Assembly (NCBI GenBank): GCA_916048095.2
Contig: OU696573.1
Coordinates: 248,001-312,000 of the forward strand
DNA: 64,000 bases
From: Sacculina carcini
Taxonomy: Eukaryota > Arthropoda > Thecostraca > Sacculinidae
Direction: 5' to 3'
The notes beneath the pieces were generated by a model, which saw only the letters and a program-made list of their open reading frames with translations, ran no database searches and had not been told where the DNA came from. Below, piece after piece: positions 7,864-63,635 of the stretch; the first letter of the stretch is position 1, and the number at the start of each line of letters is the position of its first letter. A program made the position numbers and the translations under genes.

Positions 7864-10800
7864 CTGGCAACACACACACACACACACACACAAACGCATT
7901 GGCTAGAAACTCATACAGTTTGATAAAAACATACAAAAATGTGTTCAGTGAAAGATGCAAGCTTAATCTCCCTGATTTATCCCATCGGTGTGTTAATGAG
8001 CTGAATGTATTATACAAGTATTTTTAGCAGGTATTATCCAATTTTCCAGTTTGGAAAAGACCGATATAAAGGAGTATTTTGTCTGAACCGTGTGCTCAAG
8101 TCATTTTTCATTCAAGCAATCAGACAGATTTTGTTCACAATAGCTGGTTCAATTGGTTAGAGATCGTGGAAAACTTCCTCGCCAAGATGAAGCATGCAAT
8201 GATTGGAAGTGGTGACATCAACATATTTAGCCGGTGCCGCAAGAAGAAATGGCTTCACAATGTCACCGCAACTCGCGGTCAAGCACTGCTACGGTAAGGA
8301 GAACAGATCAGTGAGAGAGAGATAAGAGAAATAATACACAACAACGTCTCATCTGGGGAATGATTTCATTGAATTACAACTGGAGCAAAAACGATAATGA
8401 CAGTAATTGTGCGGCCAGCGAGTTTATCAACAATTATCAATTTACAGTCGGACCGGCCATATCAATTGTGTGTGGGAACGGCGACTGTTAATGAGCGGTT
8501 GTGTGCGGCGTGGCGGTGCCAGGCACCACGTCGCATGCTCTCCGTCATCACCGGTGCTTGCCACTGTCCTCGTGCACGACGGGAACATTGAGAACAGCAC
8601 GCATCAACCCTAATTCAGCTGGACATGAGAAAAAGTCAGGCGACTTGCTAATGAAAAAGGCGAAAGATAAAATGAAAACAATGGAATGAGCAGAGTTCGG
8701 GAGAGGTGGCAGTGAAAAAACCCTTGACCGTCTGGTGTTGACAAAAAAGGTCTCTTTCTTGCCATGTACCGCTGTGACCGTGATGACAGTGAGATGATAA
8801 TGTCGGCAATTAAGCCAGCTGTGCGCTGAACACCGTTGTCTCAACCTGCCTGCTGTCCAGCCACGAGCACGAGCGAAACTGCGGCGACAACACGCCACCT
8901 CCACTGACACCTCTCTCTCTCTCAACCAGTACCAACACTGACACCTCTCTCTCAACCAGTACCATCACTGACATCACTCTCTCTTTCAACCAGTACCATC
9001 ACTGACACCACTATCTCTCTCAACCAGTACCATCACTGACACCACACACTCTCTCTCAAACAACCAGTACCATCACTGACACCACACACTCTCTCTCAAC
9101 CAGTACCAACACTGACACCACACACTCTCTCTCAACCAGTACCAACACTGACACCACTCTCTCTCTCAACCAGTACCATCACTATCACTATCTCTCTCAA
9201 CCAGTACCATCACTGACATCTCTCTCTCTCTCTCTCAACCAGTACCATCACTATCACTATCTCTCTCAACCAGTACCAACACTGACACCACACACTCTCT
9301 CTCTCAACCAGTACCAACACTGACACCACTCTCTCTCTCTCAACCAGTATCATCACTGACACCACCTCTCTCTCTCAACCAGTATCATCACTGACACCAC
9401 CTCTCTCTCTCAACCAGTATCATCACTGACACCACTCTCTCTCAACCAGTATCATCACTGACACCACTATCTCTCTCAACCAGTATCAACACTTGCGTCA
9501 CGGACAACAAAACCAACCTCAGTTGACACAAGATAAATGTGTGAAAACCTCGAAAAACTGGAATTAAAATCACACATTGTTTCAACGGTCAAATATTAGA
9601 AAGTCGGGCCCTATCACACTGCTCATTCAATCCAATCTCTGTTCATCCTTGTTTACCTTGTTCAACAGGGTGAAACTCCCGAAATTGTATGTGTGTGTGT
9701 GTGTGTGTGTGTGTCTAGTGTTTGACCACTCGCAGACAGTGGAGGTTACAAATTTTAAACAGAAACCGCAGGTGTTTGCCGCCAGTGGAATGTTGTTCAC
9801 GTATCGGCCGACAGAAAAACACACTAACACTCACACATTCCTCCTCCCTTCCAACTTCTCACACACACAAGAGCACATGCACATGCGTGCACACAGACAC
9901 ACATACACACACAGACAAACATACAAGAGCTTAACAAGATGATTGCGCCATTGATCAAATCAGCTTCATCTTCGTAATATGAAAATTGTCTTGTGAAATC
10001 GAGATAGAATTAATAGGTGTATTAATAGGTGAAAGTACAGAAAACACCAGTGAATTTAATGCGAGATATAATGATACAATGTATTTGTCATTAGCGGCCA
10101 GGCTTATTGCTGCAGTGACCGGCTTTTAGTAATGACAGCGGTCTGCTCTCACGGAATGTCACGTGAATTTGAATGTGACAAAACAGAGATCGAGTAGAGA
10201 TGAGGCGAACATTGAACAAGCATATGACTTACATTGTACACAACATGTATTCCTAATCCAGCAAATTACGTACAAGCAGATTACTATCATCCTCTGATAA
10301 GTCGGGAATTCCCACACACACACAGAAACAATAACTTGGCCGAACTGAGACGTTCTCACACACAAACAGAACATTCTCGGCAAGAGAGAAACAAGTGTGT
10401 CCAGCGACATTGAGTACCAACAGTCATTTCAAACACGTCACAATGCGCATTTCTGGCAAATGGCGTCATTAGTTGAACGACACAACGTACTCAATAGCAC
10501 CACATGGGGCCGAACGGCACTTGCGCAATCTTTGTGTGATAGTAAGGACATGCTGTACAAGTGTGGTAGGCAGGTGGAAGCATTCCCATCAGTGTATATG
10601 AACGAGACCATCGCAATTACTCGCTAACTCACAGCCAAACACAACACAGCCATCTCTTGTAGATTCCCCGCAACGAGAAGACGCTAGTGAATGGAAGATG
10701 TGCATTCAGTCGAGAATTTCAATTGCACATTATTTGATACAGAATTTGTGTACCAGTAATATACCATAAATACCCAGTGATACCAAAGTATGGATGGTTC

Positions 10801-62400: not shown

Positions 62401-63635
62401 TGATTCAACCGTGATTTTTGTAGAATATTTGCCAGCTGATTGTAGGTTTCCTTGTGTTCGGCTGATTCATTCCACTTGACGGCCAGTTTTCACCACATGT
62501 GTGTGTGTGTGTGTGTGTGTGTGTGTGTGTGTGTGTGTGTGTGTGTGTGTGTGTGTGTGTGTGTGTGTGTGTGTGTGTGTGTGTGTGTGCAGAGTGGTGT
62601 GGTGGCGGCAGTGCCCGGCCTGCCTGGCTTGGCCATCAACACAGGCAGTTCACTGCAGTTGTGGCGTCTGCCTGCCACTACCTCGCCGCCACCCGCCCGT
62701 CCCCAGCTGCTGGTCGAGCTGCAGTATCGCGCTGGAGACCCGGCGCTCTGCTGGGCCGTGTCTGGGGACGGTCACTGGCTGGCGTACAGCACGAGACGCA
62801 GCTGGTTGCGCGTGTTGCACGTGGCGGTGCTTAATGATCGACCGGCGCTGACTCCCGTGCGCCACGTGGTTCCTCCGCCCTGTGATGCCAGCTCGCGACG
62901 ACCGCACGTACTGCGACTGTTGCACTTCACCGGCAGCTCGAGCACAGGCGGTCACACACTGCTGGCGGTCACGTGCAGTGGACAACTGGTGCGTCTGTGC
63001 ATGCCCGACATGAGTGCGACCAGGCTCGGTGGCGAGTGTGAGATTGTAGCTGAGCTATTGGTCGAGGAGGTGTGCGCTCGTGGCAGTCACGCGCACTTGC
63101 TAGTCGTGGATGAGGAGGGAGGCTGGGCGGCCGTGGCTGCCGTGGACGGCTCGGTGACGGTGTATGACGTGCGACAAACGCCGGTCACAATGGTGAGACA
63201 AGTGGCAGCTCGCAAACACGTCGGACCCGTCACTGCCATGATTCTGCGCCACGACGCTGCCGACTTGTCATCGTCGTCGCAGTCGCCTCTGTTGCTGCTG
63301 GTCTATGTGGACCGCAGCATGGTGGAGCTGAGTTTGACGGACGGCGGTGTGAGTGAGTGGAGCGGTGAGTGGAGCGGTGCCGGCGGTCGACTGCCAGATG
63401 CGTGGACACGACGCCGCGTGGCTGTCAGTGCGGTGGTTCTGGCCGACCAGCGAGTGTTGCTGCACGACCACGAGGCCATCTTGTCTCTGCCTGCCCGACG
63501 AGCAGGAGCCGATGTCAGGGATGGTCGCAAATCTCGCAGGAAGACCGATCAAAAAGCGGTCGCCGCCACTCAAACTGATATAGATGAACAACACGAGCAG
63601 CAGGGAGATAGCGAGGTCGTGCTGCTTGATGACAG
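59473..63635 (+). CDS. UTP4 (CIRH1A): UTP4/Cirhin, WD40 subunit of the SSU processome (3' end outside window)
   Basis: Nucleolar WD40 protein of the t-UTP/UTP-A module, needed for early 18S pre-rRNA processing. Exons are 59473-59576, 59794-60226, 60707-60918, 61745-62022, 62223-62296 and 62593-63635; phases 2, 0, 2, 1 and 0 agree and the last donor is CAG|GTGAGC (phase 2). The start MPEFKAHVVRFY matches the Cirhin N-terminus (MGEFKVHRVRFF). Further matches are RADGSLELWHV, EALCWCGSDGLYSAGLHG, GGAVWCMAAHS, VLCVCWSDDGRHLAVGS and SAGVDADIV. 714 residues are encoded so far, versus 686 in the human protein. The remaining C-terminal tail must be in one or more exons past 63635. A Gly-rich insertion and a Lys/Arg-Gln tail (SRRKTDQK, EQHEQQ) are extra. 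Confidence 0.95.
60227..60706 (+). other. UTP4 intron 2
   Basis: 480 bp, AT-rich, with no recognisable element apart from short ATATAAA/AATAAAT runs. Confidence 0.7.
60927..61100. repeat. (CA)n-rich array in UTP4 intron 3
   Basis: Interrupted CA/CATA repeat starting eight bases after the exon 3 donor. The sense RNA is (CA)n here, while (TG)n occurs at the other end of the same intron, so the intron ends could pair. Confidence 0.93.
62498..62589. repeat. (TG)n microsatellite abutting the UTP4 exon 6 acceptor
   Basis: About 92 bp of TG followed directly by CAG and the exon at 62593. Confidence 0.98.
62593..63635 (+). CDS. UTP4 (CIRH1A): UTP4 exon 6: second WD40 block
   Basis: A 1043-bp GC-rich exon that starts directly after a (TG)n tract of about 92 bp plus CAG. 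It carries the C-terminal propeller: LQLWRLPATT, GDGHWLAYST, LLVVDEEGGWAAVAAVDG, VTVYDVRQTP, VTAMILRHDA and VLLHDHEAI. It ends in a charged Gln-rich segment that is probably disordered. Confidence 0.93.

Follow-up and report, generated by a model that had tools for sequence, protein, structure and literature searches.

UG-rich tracts at many 3′ splice sites of Sacculina carcini, a probable stand-in for the polypyrimidine tract

The polypyrimidine tract is among the more constant parts of animal introns, and poly(UG) near human splice sites is an addition in a minority of them. A different arrangement reportedly exists in zebrafish, where the AC...GU introns attributed to Lin et al. 2016 (Genome Res. 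26:12-23) are said to have CA at their 5′ and UG at their 3′ ends. Pairing of CA and UG ends in zebrafish introns is described in PMC9198270 as joining the splice sites in place of U2AF2. Among human dinucleotide repeats of at least 12 units, PMC12276007 gives UG alone as enriched near splice sites, and UG-bound TDP-43 is involved in the mis-splicing of CFTR exon 9 (PMC12171016). Searches of the open-access literature found no account of an animal in which UG acceptors are the rule. Here we analyse the 3′ splice sites (acceptors) of a 64,000-nucleotide stretch of Sacculina carcini DNA, hereafter the window (G000:C6:248001-312000, within a 264,436,087-base, 43-contig assembly), in which UG repeats had been predicted to take the place of the polypyrimidine tract, together with loci elsewhere in the assembly. 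A UG tract is common at acceptors beyond the window, at many loci, and on the sequence evidence it probably serves as a functional replacement of the pyrimidine tract.

Because our alignments accepted any AG as an acceptor at equal cost, they hold no built-in preference for TG acceptors (TG in the DNA, UG in the sense RNA). All introns were placed from genomic DNA by spliced protein alignment, using a splicing-aware dynamic program and animal protein templates; donors could be GT or GC only, with GC penalised, and GTAAG and GTGAG donors received a small bonus. The 64 introns left after a flank filter form the main sample, which is small relative to the genome and mixes unselected with selected loci. 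Of these 64 homology-anchored introns, 37 have a TG run of at least 8 nucleotides (nt) within their final 70 nt, and the corresponding counts for other runs are CA 1, TC 0, GA 0 and TA 2. Runs of at least 20 nt occur at 16 of the 64 acceptors for TG and at none for CA. The original prediction that the repeat is UG in the sense RNA whichever strand carries the gene is thus upheld, with an antisense CA run at 1/64 acceptors. Its claim that most acceptors are of this kind stands at 37/64, or at 19/39 in the strictest subset, and individual loci range from 0/4 (L062) to 5/5 (L051). Each of the 12 acceptor coordinates it quoted does have a sense-strand TG run just before the AG, the one at 19052 being an interrupted run with a UUACAG end instead of the UCAG, UAG, UUAG or UUGCCAG that the prediction described.

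The same tendency is seen when the sample is divided by origin. TG acceptors make up 31 of 55 outside the window, 25 of 45 in kinesin genes alone and 2 of 4 in random stretches; 27 of 49 are left when the window and the loci chosen for TG are both removed, and the strictest subset further removes three kinesin loci inspected beforehand. The kinesin genes were picked as a multi-exon set through a Pfam kinesin search (123 matches), from which 13 intron-bearing loci were used and those on contigs C26, C9, C12, C23 and C19 and at C4:2512599 were left out. Exon flanks of five kinesin genes had been inspected beforehand: the TG-rich L045-L047 were among the ten loci first taken whole, and the TG-poor L061 and L062 joined the sample later, together with L063. 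As a random set, 10 kb stretches were taken at 3.0 Mb on each of contigs C1 to C20 (16 of 20 obtained), and three loci with filtered introns came from them. Two loci, L005 and L007, were chosen for a TG10TCAG match and led to a second LAP gene; with the bait acceptors themselves uncounted, they give 4/6 TG acceptors and are not unbiased. More than 20 kinesin motor frames that are uninterrupted and near full length also exist besides the intron-bearing genes, on C11 (1881371-2062534, several of them arrayed), C23, C29, C12 and other contigs.

Filtering was recorded batch by batch. In the first alignment batch 44 of 54 introns passed, one of which, a UTP4 intron at a template gap, was dropped; all 54 rows, unfiltered, include 33 with a TG run of at least 8 nt. 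The second batch passed 7 of 13, with such a run in 4 of the 6 failures. A PDZ batch kept 4 of 5 distinct acceptors, the failed one having a 25-nt TG run, and one alternative donor of an already counted acceptor was removed by hand; in the last added batch, 10/10 introns passed.

In this sample of introns, UG density at acceptors, set against intron interiors and against CA on the same strand, proved neither equal nor symmetric, and the original prediction withstood this test. Among the 49 introns that reach 300 nt, a TG run marks the acceptor in 29; 67-nt windows drawn from their own interiors gave 6.9 on average and 15 at most (20,000 draws), and interior windows of the same introns contain a TG run in up to 14% of cases. 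From the 3′ to the 5′ end of these 49 introns, the share covered by TG runs falls from 21.1% in the last 70 nt to 5.2% in the preceding 70 and 4.7% in the middle, and then to 1.7% and 1.4%. Coverage by CA runs follows the reverse course (0.2%, 0.6%, 3.3% in the middle, 5.5% and 8.0%), and TC runs cover none of the last 70 nt and 0.2% of the middle.

These gradients bear on an explanation by neutral tolerance, according to which common TG and CA microsatellites expand anywhere and selection merely purges CA, which is A-rich and prone to create AG, from acceptors and TG from donors. Both repeats do occur in intron interiors, and the lack of CA at 3′ ends and the low TG at 5′ ends match such removal. 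Purging, however, cannot lift TG about 4.5-fold above its interior level, and the length of the acceptor TG tract is unrelated to interior repeat density per locus (Spearman rho 0.17, p 0.52, 17 loci). UC runs, which should be tolerated best, are found at 0/64 acceptors but at 12/64 intron 5′ ends, so mere tolerance of AG-free repeats does not account for the pattern. We regard neutral tolerance as unlikely.

The composition of the acceptors themselves points in the direction of replacement. Positions -20 to -5 of TG acceptors are T 0.465, G 0.429 and A 0.052, and acceptors without a TG run are also T-rich (0.431) and G-rich (0.278). A polypyrimidine tract before the AG is usual, though not obligatory, in U2-type introns; here a pyrimidine (Y) run of at least 8 nt in the last 45 nt is present in just 2 of the 64 introns, both among the 27 without a TG run and none among the 37 with one. 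Where present, the UG tract adjoins the 3′ splice site, and acceptors regulated by TDP-43 or CELF likewise have UG beside the 3′ splice site or the branch site. Acceptor ends are CAG in 47 introns, TAG in 11, AAG in 5 and GAG in 1.

Whole-genome motif counts speak for the direction of the effect and not for its magnitude. The motif (TG)10TCAG occurs 4332 times (2158 + 2174) against 387 (193 + 194) for its reversed control, and (CA)10TCAG occurs 171 times (81 + 90) against 30 + 18. Repeat arrays contribute to the (TG)10TCAG count; on contig C1, 75 of the first 100 places have no neighbour within 500 bp. The first 100 places on C1 are concentrated at 0.2-4.2 Mb and 10-12.2 Mb, with nearly none at 4.3-9.8 Mb. 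Repeat-like sequence follows the TG10TCAG baits in L003, L004 and L008, the peptides after those in L001 and L007 we take to be UNC-45-like and PDZ-like, and the TG-AG sites in the random stretches L009 and L010 precede peptides that we take to be POLQ/HELQ-like and MARK-like.

Intron 5′ ends carry repeats of the opposite polarity, a feature that the original prediction had not mentioned. CA runs of at least 8 nt lie in the first 100 nt of 13/64 introns and TC runs in 12/64 (an example in the window is 60926-61099), and the stretch 6-76 nt into the intron is rich in C (0.28) and poor in G (0.15). Donors are GT in 60 introns and GC in 4, and acceptors are all AG, the alignment having permitted GT/GC and AG alone. 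The donors are degenerate: GTRAG is found in just 13/64, and the others include GTGCG, GTCAC, GTCAG and GTAAC. Donors of the GTRAG type were scarcer in TG introns than in other introns in an early set (1/28 versus 8/15, p 0.0003), in all 54 first-batch rows (p 0.009) and in a within-gene permutation (p 0.018); in the full sample the figures are 4/37 versus 9/27 (p 0.056), a hint of an association between UG acceptors and weak (non-GTRAG) donors.

How might such acceptors work? We propose that the UG tract would act as a working 3′ splice-site element, and that it would keep A scarce ahead of the AG and could shift the branch point upstream of the tract. It may be read in place of the pyrimidine tract by the animal's own U2AF2, with U at every second position and RRM2 altered. 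Alternatively, an RRM protein that binds UG, of the CELF, TDP-43 or SF3B4 type, could be the reader and aid the U2 small nuclear ribonucleoprotein (snRNP). The repeats themselves may have been born by microsatellite slippage from U/G-rich tracts and retained by selection for acceptor function. A fold of the UG tract as RNA, for example a poly(UG) (pUG) quadruplex, is a further possibility because a TG run of at least 24 nt within the last 150 nt, the length of the 12-repeat pUG quadruplex (PMC12276007), is reached in 9/64 introns.

Candidate readers are encoded in the assembly. A search with human U2AF2 gave four matches, two of them near full length and 64% and 61% identical; these lie at C26:1032223-1033461 (-) (L056) and C26:1035399-1036658 (+) (L055) as an intronless, uninterrupted, divergent pair. 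Comparison with the human protein at 21 selected positions shows the RRM1 half kept (11/11 and 10/11 in the two copies). Human N268, N271 and N289 are replaced by P/T/H in one copy and G/S/H in the other. These three asparagines are putative RNA contacts, for which a literature search gave no usable support, and their replacement, seen against the human sequence alone, is a lead. The contacts named in PMC4786784 include Q147, K225, R227, K260, F304, K329 and K340; both copies keep them for the most part (Q147, K225, R227, K260, F304 and K329), with K340 changed to R. TDP-43-like genes are present in about three copies (C29, C26), RRM pieces from two of which resemble the human protein, and a CELF-like match over RRM1-RRM2 lies at C4:635596-636141 (+) in a single uninterrupted 515-residue frame. 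SF3B4 is said to favour GU-rich motifs (PMC7408900). On the donor side, the 5′ end of U1 small nuclear RNA (snRNA) is the canonical ACTTACCTG in 19 of the 20 copies read, one copy (L083) having AATTACCTG; at least 42 U1 matches were obtained (42 of 3195 candidates scored), with clusters at C6:11.22-11.49 Mb and C10:3.3-4.5 Mb.

Several observations weigh against replacement of the polypyrimidine tract by UG. TG runs are missing from 27/64 acceptors and loci are uneven, with 0/4 in L062 and 1/5 in L061. Loose TG-then-AG sites in the random and C1 loci were followed by a coding score above 5 in a fraction of 0.23 (of 31), compared with 0.06 for any TG run, 0.04 for CA-then-AG, 0.08 for random places, 0.10 for random YAG and 0.83 for kinesin acceptors; this is only a modest rise, so many such sites are not acceptors. 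The U2AF2 RRM2 positions are kept at 5/10 per copy, and no wholesale change of specificity is shown. The branch-point motif YTRAY shows only a slight rise (0.020 versus 0.014 per base in the interior; 17 sites at 50-70 nt from the end of the intron), which weakly fits displaced branch points and is no proof of them. The templates apart from KIF5B and UTP4 are unverified sequences, with the RRM region of U2AF2 also covered by a Protein Data Bank (PDB) alignment; the human UTP4 template was retrieved from PDB by sequence. Finally, in the mammalian cases described in PMC12171016 and PMC2715136, UG near an acceptor recruits a repressor, CELF or TDP-43, and the exon is repressed.

The zebrafish introns suggest another explanation, in which CA repeats on the donor side pair with UG on the acceptor side, join the splice sites and replace U2AF2. 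The polarity is alike, with CA at 13/64 5′ ends and UG at 3′ ends, and introns with both repeats exist (UTP4 60919..61744 and a 262-nt intron of L009). Yet the two ends are not associated: 5′ CA accompanies 6/37 TG introns and 7/27 others (p 0.36), leaving 31/37 UG-acceptor introns without a CA run of at least 8 nt in their first 100 nt. Duplexes were computed for pairs of a 5′ segment (120 nt) and a 3′ segment (80 nt); an intron's own duplex was no stronger than in permuted introns (p 0.70, n=48; p 0.78, n=39), and the 5′ end bettered the interior as partner of the 3′ end in just 10/22. CA:UG end pairing as a general mechanism thus fails both the permutation and the co-occurrence tests, and we hold it improbable, while individual introns bearing both repeats may pair.

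Less probable still is that the introns, or their 3′ ends, derive from a mobile element (an introner) with a (TG)nTCAG terminus. When all 64 introns were compared with one another after masking of simple repeats, 36 matches arose, none joining two same-strand 3′ ends (last 70 nt), and we reject this origin for want of 3′ ends in common. Left unmasked, the comparison gave 2197 rows joining 3′ ends, as TG runs alone would yield. Intron positions are mostly private to paralogues, in the kinesins (among 45 introns, three column-and-phase positions are shared, by two loci each) and in the LRR parts of the two LAP genes, which suggests that introns have turned over and would suit such an element; on the other side, the sequences upstream of the UG tracts differ, and one PDZ2 intron apparently common to the two LAP paralogues has UG at both acceptors.

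In the window, UG tracts stand at aligned or proposed acceptors of the LAP, UTP4, CELSR-type and unrecognised genes (Table 1). The LRR part of the LAP gene is identical to human SCRIB at 182/416 aligned residues, with seven introns placed. Four or five of these have a TG acceptor, the count depending on 57037, where the run is 7 nt: runs at 58016, 57593, 55986 and 54764 are 13 to 31 nt long, and those at 56716 and 55340 never exceed 4 nt. Seven of the named acceptors were checked for reading frames, and each has at least one open frame downstream. We take the peptides after 7864 and 19052 to be cadherin-like and that after 44008 to be the GLGFSI of a PDZ domain. The UTP4 boundary at 62593 was not confirmed by spliced alignment of human UTP4. 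In a 649-residue open frame at 12908-14854 (-), five stretches match the cadherin domain and there is a match to a ninth cadherin domain of CELSR2 type, which marks the DNA as that of an animal. A COX1 search of the assembly gave no match.

Table 1. UG tracts and related repeats at intron ends in the window (positions within the 64 kb window; sequences given as sense RNA)
Feature	Position	Strand	Basis
Interrupted UG-rich tract, UUACAG end, CELSR-type gene	19052..19080	-	Sequence; cadherin-like downstream peptide
(UG)n tract, UUGCCAG end, CELSR-type gene	7864..7892	-	Sequence; cadherin-like downstream peptide
(UG)n tract, UCAG end, unrecognised gene	32422..32445	-	Sequence and one open downstream frame; no homology
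(UG)61 tract, UAG end, unrecognised gene	34115..34238	-	Sequence and one open downstream frame; no homology
(UG)n tract (16-nt run), acceptor of LAP PDZ intron 43935..43268	43268..43287	-	ERBIN and SCRIB PDZ spliced alignment
(UG)n tract, UUAG end, before PDZ exon (GLGFSI)	44008..44033	-	Sequence; downstream frame
CA-rich repeat	45004..45339	-	Tandem repeat; donor position inferred, not aligned
(UG)n tract, UUAG end, LAP acceptor of the original prediction	45965..45994	-	Sequence and open downstream frame only
UG tract, UCAG end, LAP acceptor of the original prediction	54357..54375	-	Sequence and open downstream frame only
(UG)n tract, UCAG end, acceptor of LAP intron 55175..54764	54764..54829	-	SCRIB spliced alignment
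(UG)n tract, UCAG end, acceptor of LAP intron 56514..55986	55986..56018	-	SCRIB alignment; LRR Pfam matches in frame after it
Short UG-rich stretch closing LAP intron 57449..57037 (GTGAG donor; runs of 7 nt at most)	57037..57054	-	SCRIB alignment
(UG)n tract, UCAG end, acceptor of LAP intron 57879..57593	57593..57626	-	SCRIB spliced alignment; sequence
UG-rich tract, acceptor of LAP intron 58116..58016	58016..58045	-	SCRIB spliced alignment
(CA)n-rich 5′ part of UTP4 intron 60919..61744	60926..61099	+	Tandem repeat; donor at 60919 aligned
(UG)n tract, UCAG end, acceptor of UTP4 intron 60919..61744	61699..61744	+	Human UTP4 spliced alignment
(UG)46 tract before GCAG, putative UTP4 acceptor 62593	62498..62592	+	Sequence; exon matches human UTP4 weakly

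Longer repeats and other features accompany these genes. The CA-rich repeat at 45004..45339 may be the 5′ portion of the intron that comes after the exon downstream of 45965. An 8 kb minisatellite at 46137-54155, with a 41-bp unit in about 200 copies, lies inside the LAP gene and probably sits in one of its introns. A second minisatellite, at 28638-31584, has 92 copies of a 32-bp unit and is adjoined by a TGTCAG-type array at 31691-32254. A tRNA-Val (CAC) match at 39802-39873 (-) is possibly the head of a tRNA-derived repeat, and an exon with a trypsin domain lies at 40392-40862 (-).

A wider reading is that, across the lineage, UG has supplanted polypyrimidine in the 3′ splice-site code and the readers have changed to match (two intronless U2AF2 copies as the sole survivors, with N268, N271 and N289 replaced), with degenerate donors and with expandable UG microsatellites as ordinary acceptor elements; we offer this as a speculative extension that is, on balance, doubtful. 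We envision several uses for a genome with UG acceptors. First, it could be a natural test of what U2AF2 and the U2 snRNP truly require. Second, it could reveal what the mammalian repressors of UG acceptors do in a setting where UG is the norm. Third, it could show whether splicing can rely on unstable microsatellites without harm. Finally, acceptors of this kind could mislead gene finders trained on other animals.

Overall, the acceptors found here can be set beside the described systems. The canonical metazoan polypyrimidine tract bound by U2AF2 occupies the same place, and U2AF2 is conserved, but the tract here is U/G and not U/C. As is said of the zebrafish AC...GU introns, the introns of Sacculina carcini have CA toward the 5′ end and UG toward the 3′ end; the difference is that UG acceptors here form most of the sample, that the majority of them have no CA partner, and that no pairing specific to the intron is seen. 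The (UG)m(U)n of CFTR exon 9 is similar in that a variable UG repeat immediately precedes the acceptor, whereas here UG is a common acceptor feature of conserved genes. Finally, compared with poly(UG) near human splice sites, a UG run of 20 nt or longer stands at a quarter of the sampled acceptors (16/64), where a pyrimidine run of at least 8 nt is found at 2/64.

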